From positions 62,001-126,000 of the forward strand of contig JAFQRY010000026.1 in NCBI GenBank assembly GCA_017409845.1: a stretch of DNA of 64,000 nucleotides, given 5' to 3'. The translations under genes were made by a program, and so were the position numbers. The notes below the pieces were generated by a model, which had not been told where the DNA came from, did no database searches, and worked only from the letters and a program-made list of their open reading frames with translations. Positions 12,186 to 62,617 of the stretch are shown here, piece by piece (the stretch's first letter is position 1; each line of letters opens with the position of its first letter). The DNA comes from Clostridia bacterium (GTDB taxonomy: Bacteria; Bacillota; Clostridia; Oscillospirales; Acutalibacteraceae).

Positions 12186-15100
12186 TTAATATTCAAGTGA
12201 TCCTTCAAAGACAAGCTTTGTTGAACCTGTGAGATAAACGCCTTCATCTGTGTAGTTAACAATAAGGTCGCCGCCTCTTACTTTAACGGTAATGTCGGTG
12301 TTCTTTTTGCAGAATCCGTTTTCAACTGCAGCAACTACAGCAGCACAAGCACCGGTACCGCATGCAAGAGTTTCGCCGTTGCCTCTTTCCCATACTCTCA
12401 TCTTAAGAGTTGTTTCGTTAACCACTCTCACAAATTCGGTGTTGACTCTGTGAGCGAAAATATCAGCCTTTTCAAACTTGGGACCAATCTTTTCAATTTC
12501 AATGGTATCAACTCTGGGAACAAAAACAACACAGTGGGGATTACCCATTGAAACGCATGTGATTCTCTGTTCTTCACCGTTGATTGTAACGGGATAATCA
12601 ATGAATCTGTTGGTGCCGATTGTGCTTGTAACAGCATTATCGAGGTCTGCCTTGCCCATGTTTGCACAAACCGAGCTTACCTTGCCGTTCATTGTGTAAA
12701 GCTCAACGCTCTTAACACCGCTTGCGGTTTCTATGGTTACCGTTTCAGTTGTTACATAACCCTTGTCATAAACATACTTTGCAACAGATCGCATTGCGTT
12801 ACCGCCCATTCTGCCCTCGCTGCCGTCAAGATTGAATACTCTCATTTTAACCTGAGCAACATCCGATTTTTCAACAAGTACAACACCGTCGCTGCCAACT
12901 CCGTGATTTCTGTCACAAAGGCTTACGCAAAGGCTTTCGGGGCAGGTGATGGAATTGTCAAAGTTTTCGATAACGATATGATCGTTACCCGATGCATCCA
13001 TCTTGACAAAGTTGAGTGTCTGTCTTTCGGAACGCATATCGTTGATATCGACAAGCTCAGTATTCTGCTGATTGAAACGGCTTGCAATAATGTCTGCAAG
13101 TGCATTTGCGGTATCAAGTGAGGTTATGCAAGCGATTGAAAGCTGAATTGCACGTCTGTGAAGAGCAATGTAATCGCCCATTGTTGAATCCTGAAGAGCG
13201 CCTGTATAAACAACATAGTCTATCTTGCCGCTTTCGAGGAGCTTGTAGATTTCTGAATTGTCATCATATCTGCTGTTGACATATTCAACATCAATACCGA
13301 GCTGAGAAATAGCATCTGCAGTTTCTTTGGTGGCATAAATGTTAATCTTGAGGTCGTCAAGCTTCTTTGCGAGTGAAACGGCATCGAGCATATCGTGGCT
13401 GTCAACGCTGAGAAGAATACCGATATTCTTTTCGGCTGTGGGAAGCTGGATTTTGAAGCCTGCAGAGGTAAGTCCTTTATAGAGAGCTTCTGCAGTGGTT
13501 TTGCCGATACCGAGAACCTCACCGGTTGATTTCATTTCGGGACCGAGAATGGAGTTAACATCCGAAAGTTTTTCAAATGAGAATACAGGAACTTTGACTG
13601 TGTAATAAGGCGGAGTCTTATAAAGACCGGTACCGTAACCGAGGTCTTTGAGAGGCTGACCGACCATTACCTTTGAAGCAATGTCAACCATTGGAACACC
13701 CGTTACCTTGCTGATGTAGGGGATGGTTCTTGATGCTCTGGGGTTAACTTCAATAACATAAAGCTGATTATGATAGATAAGATACTGGATGTTGACAAGA
13801 CCCTTTGTTCCGAGTGAAAGTGCAAGCTTTTCAGAAACATCACAGATGTTTTCACGCATTTTATCGTTGAGATTATAGGGCGGATAAACAGCGATTGAGT
13901 CACCGCTGTGAACGCCTGCTCTTTCAACATGCTCCATGATACCGGGAATAAGAACATCCTTGCCGTCTGAAATAACATCAACCTCAAGCTCTGTACCCAT
14001 CATGTATTTATCAACAAGAACGGGATTTTCAATTTCGCCTGAAAGGATGATATCCATGTATCTTTCAACATCGGCATCCTCGTGTGCGATTGTCATGTTC
14101 TGACCGCCGATAACATATGAAGGACGGAGAAGAACGGGATAGCCGAGTGTGTTTGCAGCATTGAGCGCTTCCTGCTTTGTCATAACGCCCATACCCTTGG
14201 GTCTGCGGATTGCAAACTTTTCAAGGAGAGCATCAAAGCGTTCTCTGTCTTCAGCAGTATCAATACCGTCAGCTGAAGTGCCGAGGATTGTAATACCGTT
14301 TTCATCAAGGAATTTAGTGAGCTTGATAGCAGTCTGACCGCCGAAAGCAACAACAACACCGATGGGTTTTTCAACCTTGATGATGTTCATAACATCCTCG
14401 GGAGTGAGAGGCTCGAAATAAAGTCTGTCTGCAGTGTCGTAGTCGGTTGAAACAGTTTCGGGGTTATTGTTGATTATTGCAACCTCATAGCCGAGCTCTT
14501 TAAGAGTCCATACGCAGTGAACGGATGAATAGTCGAATTCAATACCCTGACCGATTCTGATGGGACCGGAACCGAGAACAATAATTCTGTCTTTCTTGCT
14601 GTTTTCAAGGAAGGGACGTGCCTCACATTCTTCGTCGTATACCGAATAGAAATATGGTGCGGCAACGGGGAAGTTTGAGGAGCAGGTGTCAACGATTTTA
14701 TAGACAGCATCCTTGTGAGCAGGAAGCTTGTCCACACCCGAAAGACGCTTGAGAGCAGCATCTGTATAACCGTAGTTTTTACCCTGATTATAAAGCTCTT
14801 CGGTAAGGTTGCCGTTTTCAATGGTCTTTTCAAAGTCAGCAAGATTTTTGAGCTTTTCAAGGAACCACTCGGTAATTTTTGTTATTTCGTGAACTTTCTC
14901 AATTGACATTCCGCCCTTGATAGCCTCGAAGACAGAGAAGAGTCTCATATCATCGGTGTTTCTGAGTCTTTCTTCAAGAGGAGCATTGGTCTTGGGTGCT
15001 GCATTGAGAGTGTCAAGAGAAATTTCCGCACCTCTGACCGCCTTCATAATTGCGTTTTCAAAGGTAGGACCGATTGACATAACTTCACCGGTAGCCTTCA

Positions 15101-16226
15101 TCTGTGTGCCGAGCTGGCGGCTTGCATTAACAAACTTATCGAAGGGCCATTTGGGAAGCTTGACAACGATATATTTTACATCGGGCTCAAACTTTTCGCA
15201 GTTAAGTCCTGTAGTTTCGTTTTTGATTTCATCAAGAGTGATGCCGAGAGCAAGCATTGCAGTTACTTTTGCTATGGGGTAGCCTGTTGCCTTACTTGCA
15301 AGAGCAGATGAACGCGAAACTCTGGGGTTAACCTCAATAACAGCATAGTCCATGCTGTTGGGGTCAAGTGCAAACTGGCAGTTACATCCGCCGATGATTC
15401 CGAGAGCATCAACAATATCAAGTGATGCCTTGCGGAGCATCTGGAATTCTTCATCGGTAAGTGAAAGAGCGGGTGCTGCAACTATACTGTCACCGGTGTG
15501 AATGCCGACGGGATCGAAGTTTTCCATGCTGCAGACTGCAATGCAGTTACCCTTGCTGTCACGCATGGTTTCAAACTCGATTTCCTTCCAACCGAAGATG
15601 TACTTTTCAACAAGAACCTGAGTGATGGGGGAGAGGTCAAGACCTGTTTTTGCAATAACAGCAAGCTCTTCTGCGTTGTATGCAACACCGCCGCCGCCAC
15701 CGCCGAGAGTGAATGCGGGTCGGATGATGATGGGATAACCGATTTTTTCCGCAATTTCAAGAGCGGTTTCAACATCATTTGCAATTTCGGAAGGAATAAC
15801 CGGCTGATTGATTGATTCCATTGTGTCTCTGAACATTTTTCTGTCTTCAGCCTTATCAATGGCTTCAGCGTTTGTTCCGAGAAGCTTAACGCCCATTCTG
15901 TCAAGATAGCCATCCTTGCTCAGCTGCATGGCAATGGTAAGACCTGTCTGTCCGCCGAGTCCGGCAAGAAGACTGTCGGGCTTTTCTTTTTCGATAATTC
16001 TCTTAACCGTTTCAGCGGTAAGAGGTTCAAGATAAATCTCATCTGCAAGAGCTTTATCTGTCATAATGGTTGCGGGGTTTGAGTTAACAAGAACAACATC
16101 AAGACCTGCATCCTTAAGAACACGACAAGCCTGTGTTCCTGCGTAGTCAAATTCGGCAGCCTGACCGATAACAATGGGACCTGAGCCGATGACCATGACT
16201 TTTTTGATATCTTTATTGATTGGCAT
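12186..16226 (-). CDS. carB: Fusion: carbamoyl-phosphate synthase large subunit + DapF-like domain
   Basis: One uninterrupted 1346-residue frame. Residues 1 to about 1060 are CarB, which makes carbamoyl phosphate from glutamine-derived ammonia, bicarbonate and two ATP. They hold two ATP-grasp halves (GPIVIGQAAEFDYAG near 15; second half opening GSGPIRIGQGIEFDYS) and an MGS-like allosteric domain before residue 1060. Residues 1068-1346 are a full-length diaminopimelate epimerase-like module starting LNFVKMDASGND, with NPHCV and the second catalytic motif LACGTGACAA (Cys1289). The first catalytic motif, normally MCGNG, reads MGGNA (Gly1141). The start is preceded by AAGGGGG. It lies 23 bases after argF, so the CarB part probably feeds arginine synthesis. 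No carA is in the window. Confidence 0.93.
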   Translation of the reverse strand: MPINKDIKKVMVIGSGPIVIGQAAEFDYAGTQACRVLKDAGLDVVLVNSNPATIMTDKALADEIYLEPLTAETVKRIIEKEKPDSLLAGLGGQTGLTIAMQLSKDGYLDRMGVKLLGTNAEAIDKAEDRKMFRDTMESINQPVIPSEIANDVETALEIAEKIGYPIIIRPAFTLGGGGGGVAYNAEELAVIAKTGLDLSPITQVLVEKYIFGWKEIEFETMRDSKGNCIAVCSMENFDPVGIHTGDSIVAAPALSLTDEEFQMLRKASLDIVDALGIIGGCNCQFALDPNSMDYAVIEVNPRVSRSSALASKATGYPIAKVTAMLALGITLDEIKNETTGLNCEKFEPDVKYIVVKLPKWPFDKFVNASRQLGTQMKATGEVMSIGPTFENAIMKAVRGAEISLDTLNAAPKTNAPLEERLRNTDDMRLFSVFEAIKGGMSIEKVHEITKITEWFLEKLKNLADFEKTIENGNLTEELYNQGKNYGYTDAALKRLSGVDKLPAHKDAVYKIVDTCSSNFPVAAPYFYSVYDEECEARPFLENSKKDRIIVLGSGPIRIGQGIEFDYSSVHCVWTLKELGYEVAIINNNPETVSTDYDTADRLYFEPLTPEDVMNIIKVEKPIGVVVAFGGQTAIKLTKFLDENGITILGTSADGIDTAEDRERFDALLEKFAIRRPKGMGVMTKQEALNAANTLGYPVLLRPSYVIGGQNMTIAHEDADVERYMDIILSGEIENPVLVDKYMMGTELEVDVISDGKDVLIPGIMEHVERAGVHSGDSIAVYPPYNLNDKMRENICDVSEKLALSLGTKGLVNIQYLIYHNQLYVIEVNPRASRTIPYISKVTGVPMVDIASKVMVGQPLKDLGYGTGLYKTPPYYTVKVPVFSFEKLSDVNSILGPEMKSTGEVLGIGKTTAEALYKGLTSAGFKIQLPTAEKNIGILLSVDSHDMLDAVSLAKKLDDLKINIYATKETADAISQLGIDVEYVNSRYDDNSEIYKLLESGKIDYVVYTGALQDSTMGDYIALHRRAIQLSIACITSLDTANALADIIASRFNQQNTELVDINDMRSERQTLNFVKMDASGNDHIVIENFDNSITCPESLCVSLCDRNHGVGSDGVVLVEKSDVAQVKMRVFNLDGSEGRMGGNAMRSVAKYVYDKGYVTTETVTIETASGVKSVELYTMNGKVSSVCANMGKADLDNAVTSTIGTNRFIDYPVTINGEEQRITCVSMGNPHCVVFVPRVDTIEIEKIGPKFEKADIFAHRVNTEFVRVVNETTLKMRVWERGNGETLACGTGACAAVVAAVENGFCKKNTDITVKVRGGDLIVNYTDEGVYLTGSTKLVFEGSLEY

Positions 16227-16249: not shown

Positions 16250-17155
16250 TTAGTCTTTAAGAAGTTTAACGAGAACTGCTTTCTGGGCGTGAAGTCTGTT
16301 TTCTGCCTCTTCAAAAATTTCTTTTGCGTGAGCTTCAAATACCTTTGCGGTAATTTCTTCTTCGCGGTGAGCGGGGAGGCAGTGAAGAACCATTGCGTCG
16401 CTCTTTGCAACAGCCATAACGCTATCGTTAATCTGATAACCGTCAAAGATTTTCTTTCTTTCTTCTGCTTCGCTTTCCTGACCCATAGAAGCCCAGACAT
16501 CAGTGTAAAGAACATCGGCATCCTTTGCAGCAGCAAGAATATCGGTTGTGCATGTGAAGTCGCCGTTTTCTGCAGCCCATTTCATGATTTCTGCATCGGG
16601 CTTATAGTTTTCGGGGCATGCGATGCTGACAGCCATTCCCATTTTGATACCGCCAACGATAAGTGAGTTTGCCATGTTGTTGCCGTCACCGATGTAGCAG
16701 AGTTTGTTGCCCTTGATTGAGCCTCTGAATTCACGGATTGTCATAAGATCGGCAAGAACCTGACAGGGGTGGCAATAATCGGTGAGTCCGTTGATAATGG
16801 GGATTGAACCGTATTCAGCAAGAGTTTCAACATCACTCTGGTCGAATGTTCTTATCATTATACCGTCAAGATATCCGGAAAGAACACGGGCTGTATCGTT
16901 GACGGGTTCACCTCTTCCGAGCTGTATGTCGTGAGAGCTGAGAAAAAGAGCCATGCCGCCGAGGTCATACATACCGACTTCAAAGGAAACTCTTGTTCTG
17001 GTAGATGACTTTGCGAAAATCATACCGAGTGTTTTGCCTTTGAGGTGATGGTGTTCGATTCCGTTTTTCTTTTCGTATTTGAGCTGATCAGCGAGATTGA
17101 GAATCTCATTGATTTCGTTTGTGCTCAAATCCATAAGTTTGAGTAAATGCTTCAT
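16250..17155 (-). CDS. argF: Ornithine carbamoyltransferase
   Basis: Joins carbamoyl phosphate and ornithine to give citrulline. The carbamoyl-phosphate loop SSTRTRVSFE lies near residue 50, HPCQVLADL is the next substrate motif, and HCLPAHR is the conserved Cys/His ornithine region near 263. The start chosen is the ATG at 17155-17153, preceded by TTGGAGG five bases away; a further in-frame TTG upstream would place the ribosome site inside the gene. 301 residues is normal. First gene of an operon with carB, matching substrate flow. Confidence 0.96.
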   Translation of the reverse strand: MKHLLKLMDLSTNEINEILNLADQLKYEKKNGIEHHHLKGKTLGMIFAKSSTRTRVSFEVGMYDLGGMALFLSSHDIQLGRGEPVNDTARVLSGYLDGIMIRTFDQSDVETLAEYGSIPIINGLTDYCHPCQVLADLMTIREFRGSIKGNKLCYIGDGNNMANSLIVGGIKMGMAVSIACPENYKPDAEIMKWAAENGDFTCTTDILAAAKDADVLYTDVWASMGQESEAEERKKIFDGYQINDSVMAVAKSDAMVLHCLPAHREEEITAKVFEAHAKEIFEEAENRLHAQKAVLVKLLKD

Positions 17156-17204
17156 ATATGCCTCCAAAAACAATTGATAACAAGATTAAGTTTATATTCG
17201 ATAT

Positions 17205-61837: not shown

Positions 61838-62617
61838 ATGTGCATACCTAAGGTTATTCATCTCTGCTGGTTCGGCAGAGGAGATTTTCCAAAGCTTGCG
61901 AAAATGTGTATTGAAAGCTGGAAGAAATATCTTCCTGATTATGAAATAAAGCTCTGGAACGAAGATAACTATGATGTCAATAAATGCAGCTATACTAAAA
62001 AAGCATATAAAGAACGCAGATGGGCTTTTGTGAGTGATTATGCACGCCTTGACATTCTTTATAATCACGGCGGAATATATATGGATACCGATCTGGAAAT
62101 AATTAAAGATTTTACCGACCTGCTTGAGGAAAAAAGATTTGTCAGCTCTTATATTGAGGGCGGACTTATAACTGCAGGCTTCATTGCCTGCGAAAAAAAT
62201 CATCCGTTTATAAAAAAGATAATTGATTTCTATGATGGGGAATCAAAAAAAATTGAGAATAATCAGCAGATTGATTATATAATGAATCCTCTGATTTTTA
62301 CCGAAGCCGCAATCAGAGAATATGGTTTCAGTTTAACCGACAACAGCTTTGAAAATGATGTAATAACCGTTTATCCTATAGATTATTTTATGGCATATAA
62401 AAAGGTGACGTTCGGAACATCTTATGCTCATTGGCGTTACCGTATAACCAAAAACACTTGTGCACTTCATCATGATATGTCATCATGGCACAAGCGAAAA
62501 AAGCTCACGAAGCTTATCAAATCGACTATAAGGCTGGTATTACCGCAGAATATATATATATCAATGAAAATCAAAAAGAATCTTGAAGAAATTGAAAAAC
62601 GCAAAATGAATAATTGA
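61838..62617 (+). CDS. GT32-type glycosyltransferase
   Basis: 259 residues. IPKVIHLCWFGRGDFPKL at the start is the OCH1/capsular-polysaccharide synthesis pattern, followed by DYARLDILYNHGGIYMDTDLE near 68-88, whose DTD binds the metal and sugar nucleotide. Cytoplasmic enzyme adding a hexose to a lipid-linked repeat. AGAAGGCAGG upstream of the ATG. Placed between the giant glycosidase and the polymerase. Confidence 0.92.
   Translation: MCIPKVIHLCWFGRGDFPKLAKMCIESWKKYLPDYEIKLWNEDNYDVNKCSYTKKAYKERRWAFVSDYARLDILYNHGGIYMDTDLEIIKDFTDLLEEKRFVSSYIEGGLITAGFIACEKNHPFIKKIIDFYDGESKKIENNQQIDYIMNPLIFTEAAIREYGFSLTDNSFENDVITVYPIDYFMAYKKVTFGTSYAHWRYRITKNTCALHHDMSSWHKRKKLTKLIKSTIRLVLPQNIYISMKIKKNLEEIEKRKMNN

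Follow-up and report, generated by a model that had tools for sequence, protein, structure and literature searches.

The window examined here is the whole stretch of 64,000 nucleotides (positions 62,001 to 126,000 of the forward strand of contig JAFQRY010000026.1, assembly GCA_017409845.1) from a Clostridia bacterium of the Acutalibacteraceae, order Oscillospirales. On its minus strand, an open reading frame at 12186-16226 encodes a protein of 1346 amino acids in a single stop-free frame with an ATG start. In this protein CarB, the large subunit of carbamoyl-phosphate synthase (CPS), is followed by a domain of the diaminopimelate (DAP) epimerase family DapF. The parts of the fused gene are the following:

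13077..16226, minus strand: CarB part, carbamoyl-phosphate synthase large subunit (residues 1-1050), with both ATP-grasp halves and the C-terminal allosteric (MGS) domain
13122..13382, minus strand: MGS allosteric domain (residues 949-1035; Pfam MGS, 43 bits)
13017..13076, minus strand: junction (residues 1051-1070), the CarB tail being directly followed by DapF
12189..13016, minus strand: DapF domain (residues 1071-1346; TIGR00652, DapF fold predicted)
12804..12806, minus strand: codon of Gly1141, aligned to the position of catalytic Cys73
12360..12362, minus strand: codon of Cys1289, aligned to the second catalytic cysteine (Cys217) and kept

The CarB profile NF003671 matches residues 1-1050 of the window protein with 1412 bits, and TIGR01369 (CarB) reaches 1372.9 bits on residues 4-1045, above its cut-off of 1027. 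Two CPSase_L_D2 stretches indicate that both synthetase halves are present, and the closest solved structure is E. coli CarB (998 bits). Like that enzyme (1bxr), the window CarB is complete and comprises the MGS domain as well as the two ATP-grasp halves. Unlike it, the window protein has an extra 276-residue tail, a serine instead of Lys993 at the site for uridine monophosphate (UMP) and no adjoining carA. The tail matches TIGR00652 (DapF) over residues 1072-1345 with 261.8 bits, above the cut-off of 114.65, and the profile of the bifunctional DapF/glutamate racemase, NF038284, gives 108.3 bits, under its 350-bit cut-off. The AlphaFold2 model of residues 917-1346, covering the MGS and DapF parts, is confident (pLDDT 86.5, pTM 0.69), and in a Foldseek search with the window model DapF structures rank first, the best match in the Protein Data Bank (PDB) being 9mro_A (TMt 0.91). 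The original prediction, made from the sequence of the window, described one stop-free frame joining CarB to a full-length DapF-like module; the frame and the profile matches bear this out, and the match ends confirm the residue borders that it gave for both modules.

The fusion of a complete CarB with a complete DapF is real and no product of faulty assembly. When 99 genomes (that of the window and those of its relatives) were searched for DapF, the fused frame turned up in at least 48 of them, contig-cut frames included, and these span genera and families of the order. Of 394 genomes taken from the order, at least 140 gave a match spanning the junction with a query alignment of the MGS-DapF region of copies that lack Cys73; six of the matching frames are shorter than 1000 amino acids. 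Furthermore, searching 391 genomes from the class for DapF showed fused frames in further families, and 47 of 80 loci from named records are fused (two of the 47 are contig-cut). The fused named records are mostly Oscillospiraceae, Ruminococcus and Clostridia metagenome assemblies, with two Gracilibacteraceae and one named strain, Ruminococcus sp. FC2018. In fused proteins the motif ELVDIN-x-MR leads straight into DapF, and 32 residues separate the CarB allosteric domain from DapF in 115 of 119 frames, a sample with some duplicates. Two of 11 unfused CarB tails end much alike (EMIDINSIK in L105 and EMVDINTIR in L106), while the other tails differ more. The draft state of the window genome, in 35 contigs, would be the argument for an assembly or frameshift artefact, an explanation that has practically no chance of being right and was rejected, given the recurrence of the same junction across those genomes and in the single-contig genome G675. 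The proposal to look for this junction in related genomes came with the original prediction, which was to fall if only one assembly had it; it has been found widely.

In calling the module full-length DapF-like, the original prediction overlooked the loss of its first catalytic cysteine. The position of Cys73 is occupied by Gly1141 in the window (MGGN, against MCGN in standalone DapFs), while Cys217 is kept as Cys1289. Full-length standalone DapFs keep Cys73 without exception in three typed sets (32/32, 33/33 and 24/24). Among the fused copies, Cys73 is missing in 40 of the 47 from the first genome typing, in 28 of 46 readable copies from the named records and in both of two contig-cut copies (G009 and G036). 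It is also missing in 66 of 94 copies fetched after the pattern had been seen (14 + 80 loci), a ratio that is biased because this set was drawn partly with a Cys73-lost query and partly from top-scoring DapF hits, its neighbour pattern being the useful part. The sets of 47, of named records and of 94 may share species, the overlap being screened only by the identity filters of the tree and of the CarB-residue comparison. L121 and L133, flagged by the script as single, are in fact contig-cut fusions and were counted as fused; L156, unreadable at Cys73, was excluded from the 46 and from the tree, and the late typing did not count fragments from G011, G031 and G059, which are broken or cut by contig ends. 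Cys73 is mostly replaced by Ala or Gly, and in a few cases by Ser, Phe, Thr or Pro. In five loci, L078 (G065), L090 (G088), L093 (G095), L269 (G584) and L265 (G675), Cys217 is lost and the fused frame persists.

Judging from the alignment, the window DapF domain would no longer epimerise LL-DAP. It has been reported that the E. coli double mutant DapF(C73&217A) produces no meso-DAP, while its activation of the partner RppH is preserved (PMC4227774). It is very unlikely that the window protein is still an ordinary bifunctional CarB/DAP epimerase, a candidate weakened by the Cys73 loss. Its domain does score above the DapF cut-off, and the relatives that keep Cys73, roughly half of them neighbours of dapL, probably are bifunctional; however, the window protein has a glycine where every full-length standalone DapF typed keeps Cys73, and its assembly has a standalone DapF and a meso-DAP dehydrogenase (Ddh). 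The suggestion that the fusion ties DAP supply to carbamoyl phosphate flux does not fit the window domain, which lacks Cys73, and is possible for those relatives.

Other meso-DAP sources are distributed as would be expected if the domain were dead in genomes whose fused DapF is defective and working in those where it is intact. In 40 genomes of the first kind, a standalone DapF was found in 20, Ddh in 26 and either of them in 36 (38 of 42 once G036 and G009 are added), and all 20 standalone DapFs are separate genes with Cys73. None of the six genomes with an intact fused DapF has a standalone DapF. One of the defective copies, that of G065, keeps Cys73 and has lost Asn75 and Cys217. The Fisher values for this genome comparison, 0.037 and 0.029, ignore shared ancestry, and the phylogeny-controlled test of Cys73 state against another DapF or Ddh offered one pair and had no power.

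The window assembly holds both a standalone DapF and Ddh. Whether a separate dapF exists elsewhere in the genome had been raised with the original prediction; it is present on contig C8, in an unfused carA-carB-dapF-dapL run. Over about 10 kb this run shares 98-99% identity among three species (L035 on G000:C8, L037 on G002:C39 and L059 on G008:C1), whose DNA around the fused gene is only about 77-85% identical; the region of the window fusion has about 77-86% identity to its relatives. Recent transfer and shared contamination are both possible for the C8 run, and the standalone copy is to be used with care. With this run, the statement that a link between the two pathways is unusual is only half right, as the unfused genes occur side by side in the window assembly.

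Since that unfused run exists, a pair of neighbouring genes is the probable starting point of the fusion. Unfused carB adjoins dapF on the same strand in G000, G002, G008, G017 and G045. In a tree of 141 DapF domains, quickly built and with many weak forks, the fused domains form nearly one group (two changes, with L144 falling weakly outside), and a single origin of the fusion is compatible with it. The loss of Cys73 takes eight changes on the best tree, at least three of them on well-supported branches, and one well-supported group of 43 tree rows is entirely Cys73-lost. Neighbouring genes are likely to have come first and an active fusion second, with the catalytic base lost later and more than once.

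Some fused loci stand apart. Four fused named records are labelled Treponema or Spirochaetaceae (L143, L151, L155 and L146), and three of these fusions form their own branch within the Cys73-lost group; transfer from Clostridia, or misbinning, is suggested. In L206 (G222:C31) the fused frame, inside a 24 kb contig and next to carA and dapL, has only 644 residues, with Cys73 kept, and CarB may be split or frameshifted there. L313 (G031:C38), a Gly73-type DapF in a broken frame at a contig end, is probably a cut or interrupted fused gene.

Copies with and without Cys73 differ in their genomic neighbours. In the window, the gene directly upstream of carB-dapF is the following:

16250..17173, minus strand: argF (ornithine carbamoyltransferase), same strand as the fusion, member of the argF cluster

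The call is based on the cluster representative L048:2477-3385, which matches TIGR00658 with 427 bits. No carA adjoins the window fusion; the only strong carA match of the assembly lies on contig C8, beside a second carB. Neighbours were readable at 79 loci of 88 tried (eight were missed by the tail motif and one had no usable neighbour). In these, counted without correction for shared ancestry, dapL is near 12/23 Cys73-kept versus 0/56 Cys73-lost copies, argF near 0/23 versus 24/56, pyrG (CTP synthase) near 9/23 versus 1/56 and carA near 20/23 versus 36/56. The corresponding counts in the set of 94, likewise uncorrected, are 14/28 versus 2/66 for dapL, 0/28 versus 44/66 for argF, 10/28 versus 1/66 for pyrG and 28/28 versus 56/66 for carA.

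CarB itself has changed along with its tail. The MGS part and its edges were aligned to E. coli CarB and the residue positions read by hand: the window keeps Ser948, Thr977 and Thr1042, and Lys993 is replaced by Ser. Thr977, like Lys993, belongs to the UMP site. The roles of these four residues have been described in E. coli, where Lys993 is crucial for UMP (PMC6245113). The comparison of CarB residues comprised 142 loci, selected by junction motif and length from 188 fused rows, or 126 after reduction at 95% identity. Lys993 is present in 36/36 Cys73-kept versus 22/90 Cys73-lost copies (6 of the 90 are gapped there), again uncorrected for ancestry, and Thr1042, at the ornithine site, is kept in 36/36 and 88/90. 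The Fisher values, 1.9e-10 and 1.9e-7 in the set of 94 and 1.3e-16 in the comparison of 126, also ignore shared ancestry.

In nine draft genomes of the window clade (76-97% complete), the fused CarB lies behind argF with no carA beside it. No CarA was found in G006, G013, G019, G021, G027, G033, G039, G041 and G044, with one weak match in G039, and the CarA-less fused CarB of this clade is possibly an ammonia-using CPS. In G024 and G025 unfused CarBs lie a few kb from pyrB, with no CarA shown there. An arginine-dedicated CarB was also considered and dropped: pyrB would be expected to be absent where a Cys73-lost fusion is the sole CarB, and the results went both ways. No PyrB exceeds the cut-off in G063 and G087, whose sole CarB is such a fusion; PyrB does so in G021, G041, G044 and G007, which have no other full CarB, so the fused enzyme is not simply arginine-only.

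Despite the loss of Cys73, the substrate pocket has been retained. The window keeps Asn11, Asn64, Gly74, Asn75, Asn157, Asn190, Glu208 (which we take to be a DAP-binding residue), Arg209, Gly218 and a Thr at Ser/Thr219; at the Gln44 position it has a Gly, which all 32 standalone DapFs in the first set share. The roles of the DAP-holding residues have been reported, with Asn64, Asn157, Asn190 and Arg209 contacting the distal carboxylate of DAP, and the distal-carboxylate residues are replaced in the Dab racemase PddB (PMC8225329). This PddB signature is absent from the window, which keeps all four. Over 57 non-redundant Cys73-lost rows, mean retention is 96.3% for the 11 other pocket residues and 86.1% for 58 other columns conserved in standalone DapFs. 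All 11 are present in 43 of the 57 rows and in 45 of the 66 lost rows of the set of 94, where Asn64 is kept in 66/66 and Arg209 in 64/66.

The ratio of nonsynonymous to synonymous changes (dN/dS) of the DapF part lies between 0.008 and 0.11 in 17 Cys73-lost pairs, the CarB part being alike (0.009-0.081), and is 0.016 in the sole Cys73-kept pair; the values are rough, dS being near 1 in several pairs. The Cys73-lost DapF domain is under strong purifying selection; G095 and G584 apart, it is no relic in decay. A catalytic residue lost from a domain that stays under selection is the mark of a pseudoenzyme, and it is found here; the tail may be a regulatory pseudoenzyme domain carried by a metabolic enzyme.

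The explanation that we favour, with about even confidence, is that a bifunctional CarB-DapF has been converted, on more than one occasion, to a CarB whose tail is dead as a catalyst and probably senses a ligand. The bifunctional ancestor would have arisen by the joining of genes that were adjacent in a carA-carB-dapF-dapL operon. In the window lineage and some others, the epimerase would then have lost its first catalytic cysteine while the DAP pocket stayed under selection. The tail may bind DAP or a similar compound that shares its two amino-acid ends, and could signal its binding state to CarB via the neighbouring MGS domain, in which the UMP site is altered too. E. coli RppH provides a precedent by analogy for DapF acting on a partner without catalysis. 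A more specific proposal is put forward tentatively, at somewhat less than even confidence: the dead epimerase would be a built-in DAP sensor of CPS, partly replacing the lost UMP control and setting the flow of arginine and pyrimidine precursors by the lysine and peptidoglycan state in a large group of gut bacteria, having arisen more than once from a working bifunctional enzyme. The idea of DapF as a sensor on CarB, already in the original prediction, thus gains support from the lost base, the kept pocket and the purifying selection, the link to a ligand being one that we infer.

Several observations weigh against a ligand-sensing tail on CarB. The neighbour counts are not independent, because most lost copies form one clade (43 tree rows), and the phylogeny-controlled test of Cys73 state against neighbours had at most three independent supported pairs and no power. 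PyrB exceeds its cut-off in G021, G041, G044 and G007, where no other full CarB was found. Ddh occurs in 3/6 genomes with an intact fusion, no other meso-DAP route was found in 4/40 with a defective one (G026, G032, G065 and G087, 75-97% complete), and G088 was scored as Ddh-positive only by a weak two-piece match. The pocket residues may be kept for folding, and most of the pocket is gone in the fused chains of G095 and G584. Asn11, which holds the ligand amino group, is Asp in 15/66 lost copies of the set of 94 (L220, L233-L236, L238-L240, L242-L244, L246, L263, L282 and L286), the main departure in the pocket, and a changed ligand is possible there. Finally, Cys217, which a pure sensor would not need, is kept in 55/57 and 64/66 lost rows.

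Two other explanations draw on these points. The dead DapF could be a structural passenger, kept only for CarB folding, oligomerisation or subunit contacts and sensing no ligand. This would agree with the fixed 32-residue spacing, with the similar dN/dS of the two parts, with the retention of the fusion in G095 and G584 and with the action of E. coli DapF on a partner protein without catalysis (PMC4227774). However, it is rather unlikely, as the pocket residues, distal-carboxylate ones included, are kept above the other conserved columns. Alternatively, the chemistry or the ligand may have changed, through a one-base reaction via Cys217 or the binding of an arginine-pathway compound instead of DAP. 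The retention of Cys217, the argF neighbourhood and the Asn11 to Asp change point in this direction, as does the description of a unidirectional Asp/Glu racemase in which Thr takes the place of one Cys (PMC8142540). This remains unlikely: Asn64, Asn157, Asn190 and Arg209, with their distal-carboxylate roles (PMC8225329), are nearly all kept, and Ala and Gly, the commonest replacements of Cys73, are incapable of an acid/base role.

The fused tail resembles the DapF family (TIGR00652) in whole-length homology, predicted fold, pocket residues and the second catalytic cysteine, and differs from it in being fused to CarB, in having Gly for the first catalytic cysteine and in being probably no epimerase. 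HisZ, a dead relative of histidyl-tRNA synthetase that regulates HisG, is likewise an enzyme fold turned regulator of a biosynthetic enzyme, but it is a separate subunit with other folds, and in CarB-DapF a regulatory role would be the counterpart. In the E. coli DapF-RppH complex (PDB 6d13; PMC4227774), DapF also acts on another enzyme without its own catalysis, although the two are separate proteins, the natural DapF is intact and the partner is unrelated. Fusions of DAP-pathway enzymes to other enzymes have been described, namely aspartate kinase-DAP decarboxylase and dihydropicolinate reductase-DAP aminotransferase (PMC2705460); unlike the present case, both parts belong to one pathway and neither is CarB or DapF. 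Moreover, human CPS1 is switched by N-acetylglutamate (PMC4655335), an amino-acid-like effector at the C-terminal end of a CPS, but its effector site is not a fused epimerase.

Both parts are known, each being modelled by family libraries, and the combination of CarB with a dead epimerase, like the changes that go with it, is undescribed in the literature as far as searched. That search covered titles and the beginnings of abstracts among the papers listed, with subscription journals and domain-architecture databases outside its scope, and no CarB-DapF fusion or DapF pseudoenzyme was reported there; the available parts of the likeliest sources, PMC3901274 and PMC2705460, contain no description of a CarB-DapF fusion.

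The score of the domain carries a warning for annotation, as the family match gives the name diaminopimelate epimerase to a domain that is probably dead. The natural series of unfused neighbours, active, dead and decayed fusions makes the change from enzyme to regulatory domain testable step by step. If the sensing role is true, it would represent a new allosteric input on a textbook enzyme, and a direct wire between cell-wall and lysine synthesis and the synthesis of arginine and pyrimidines.

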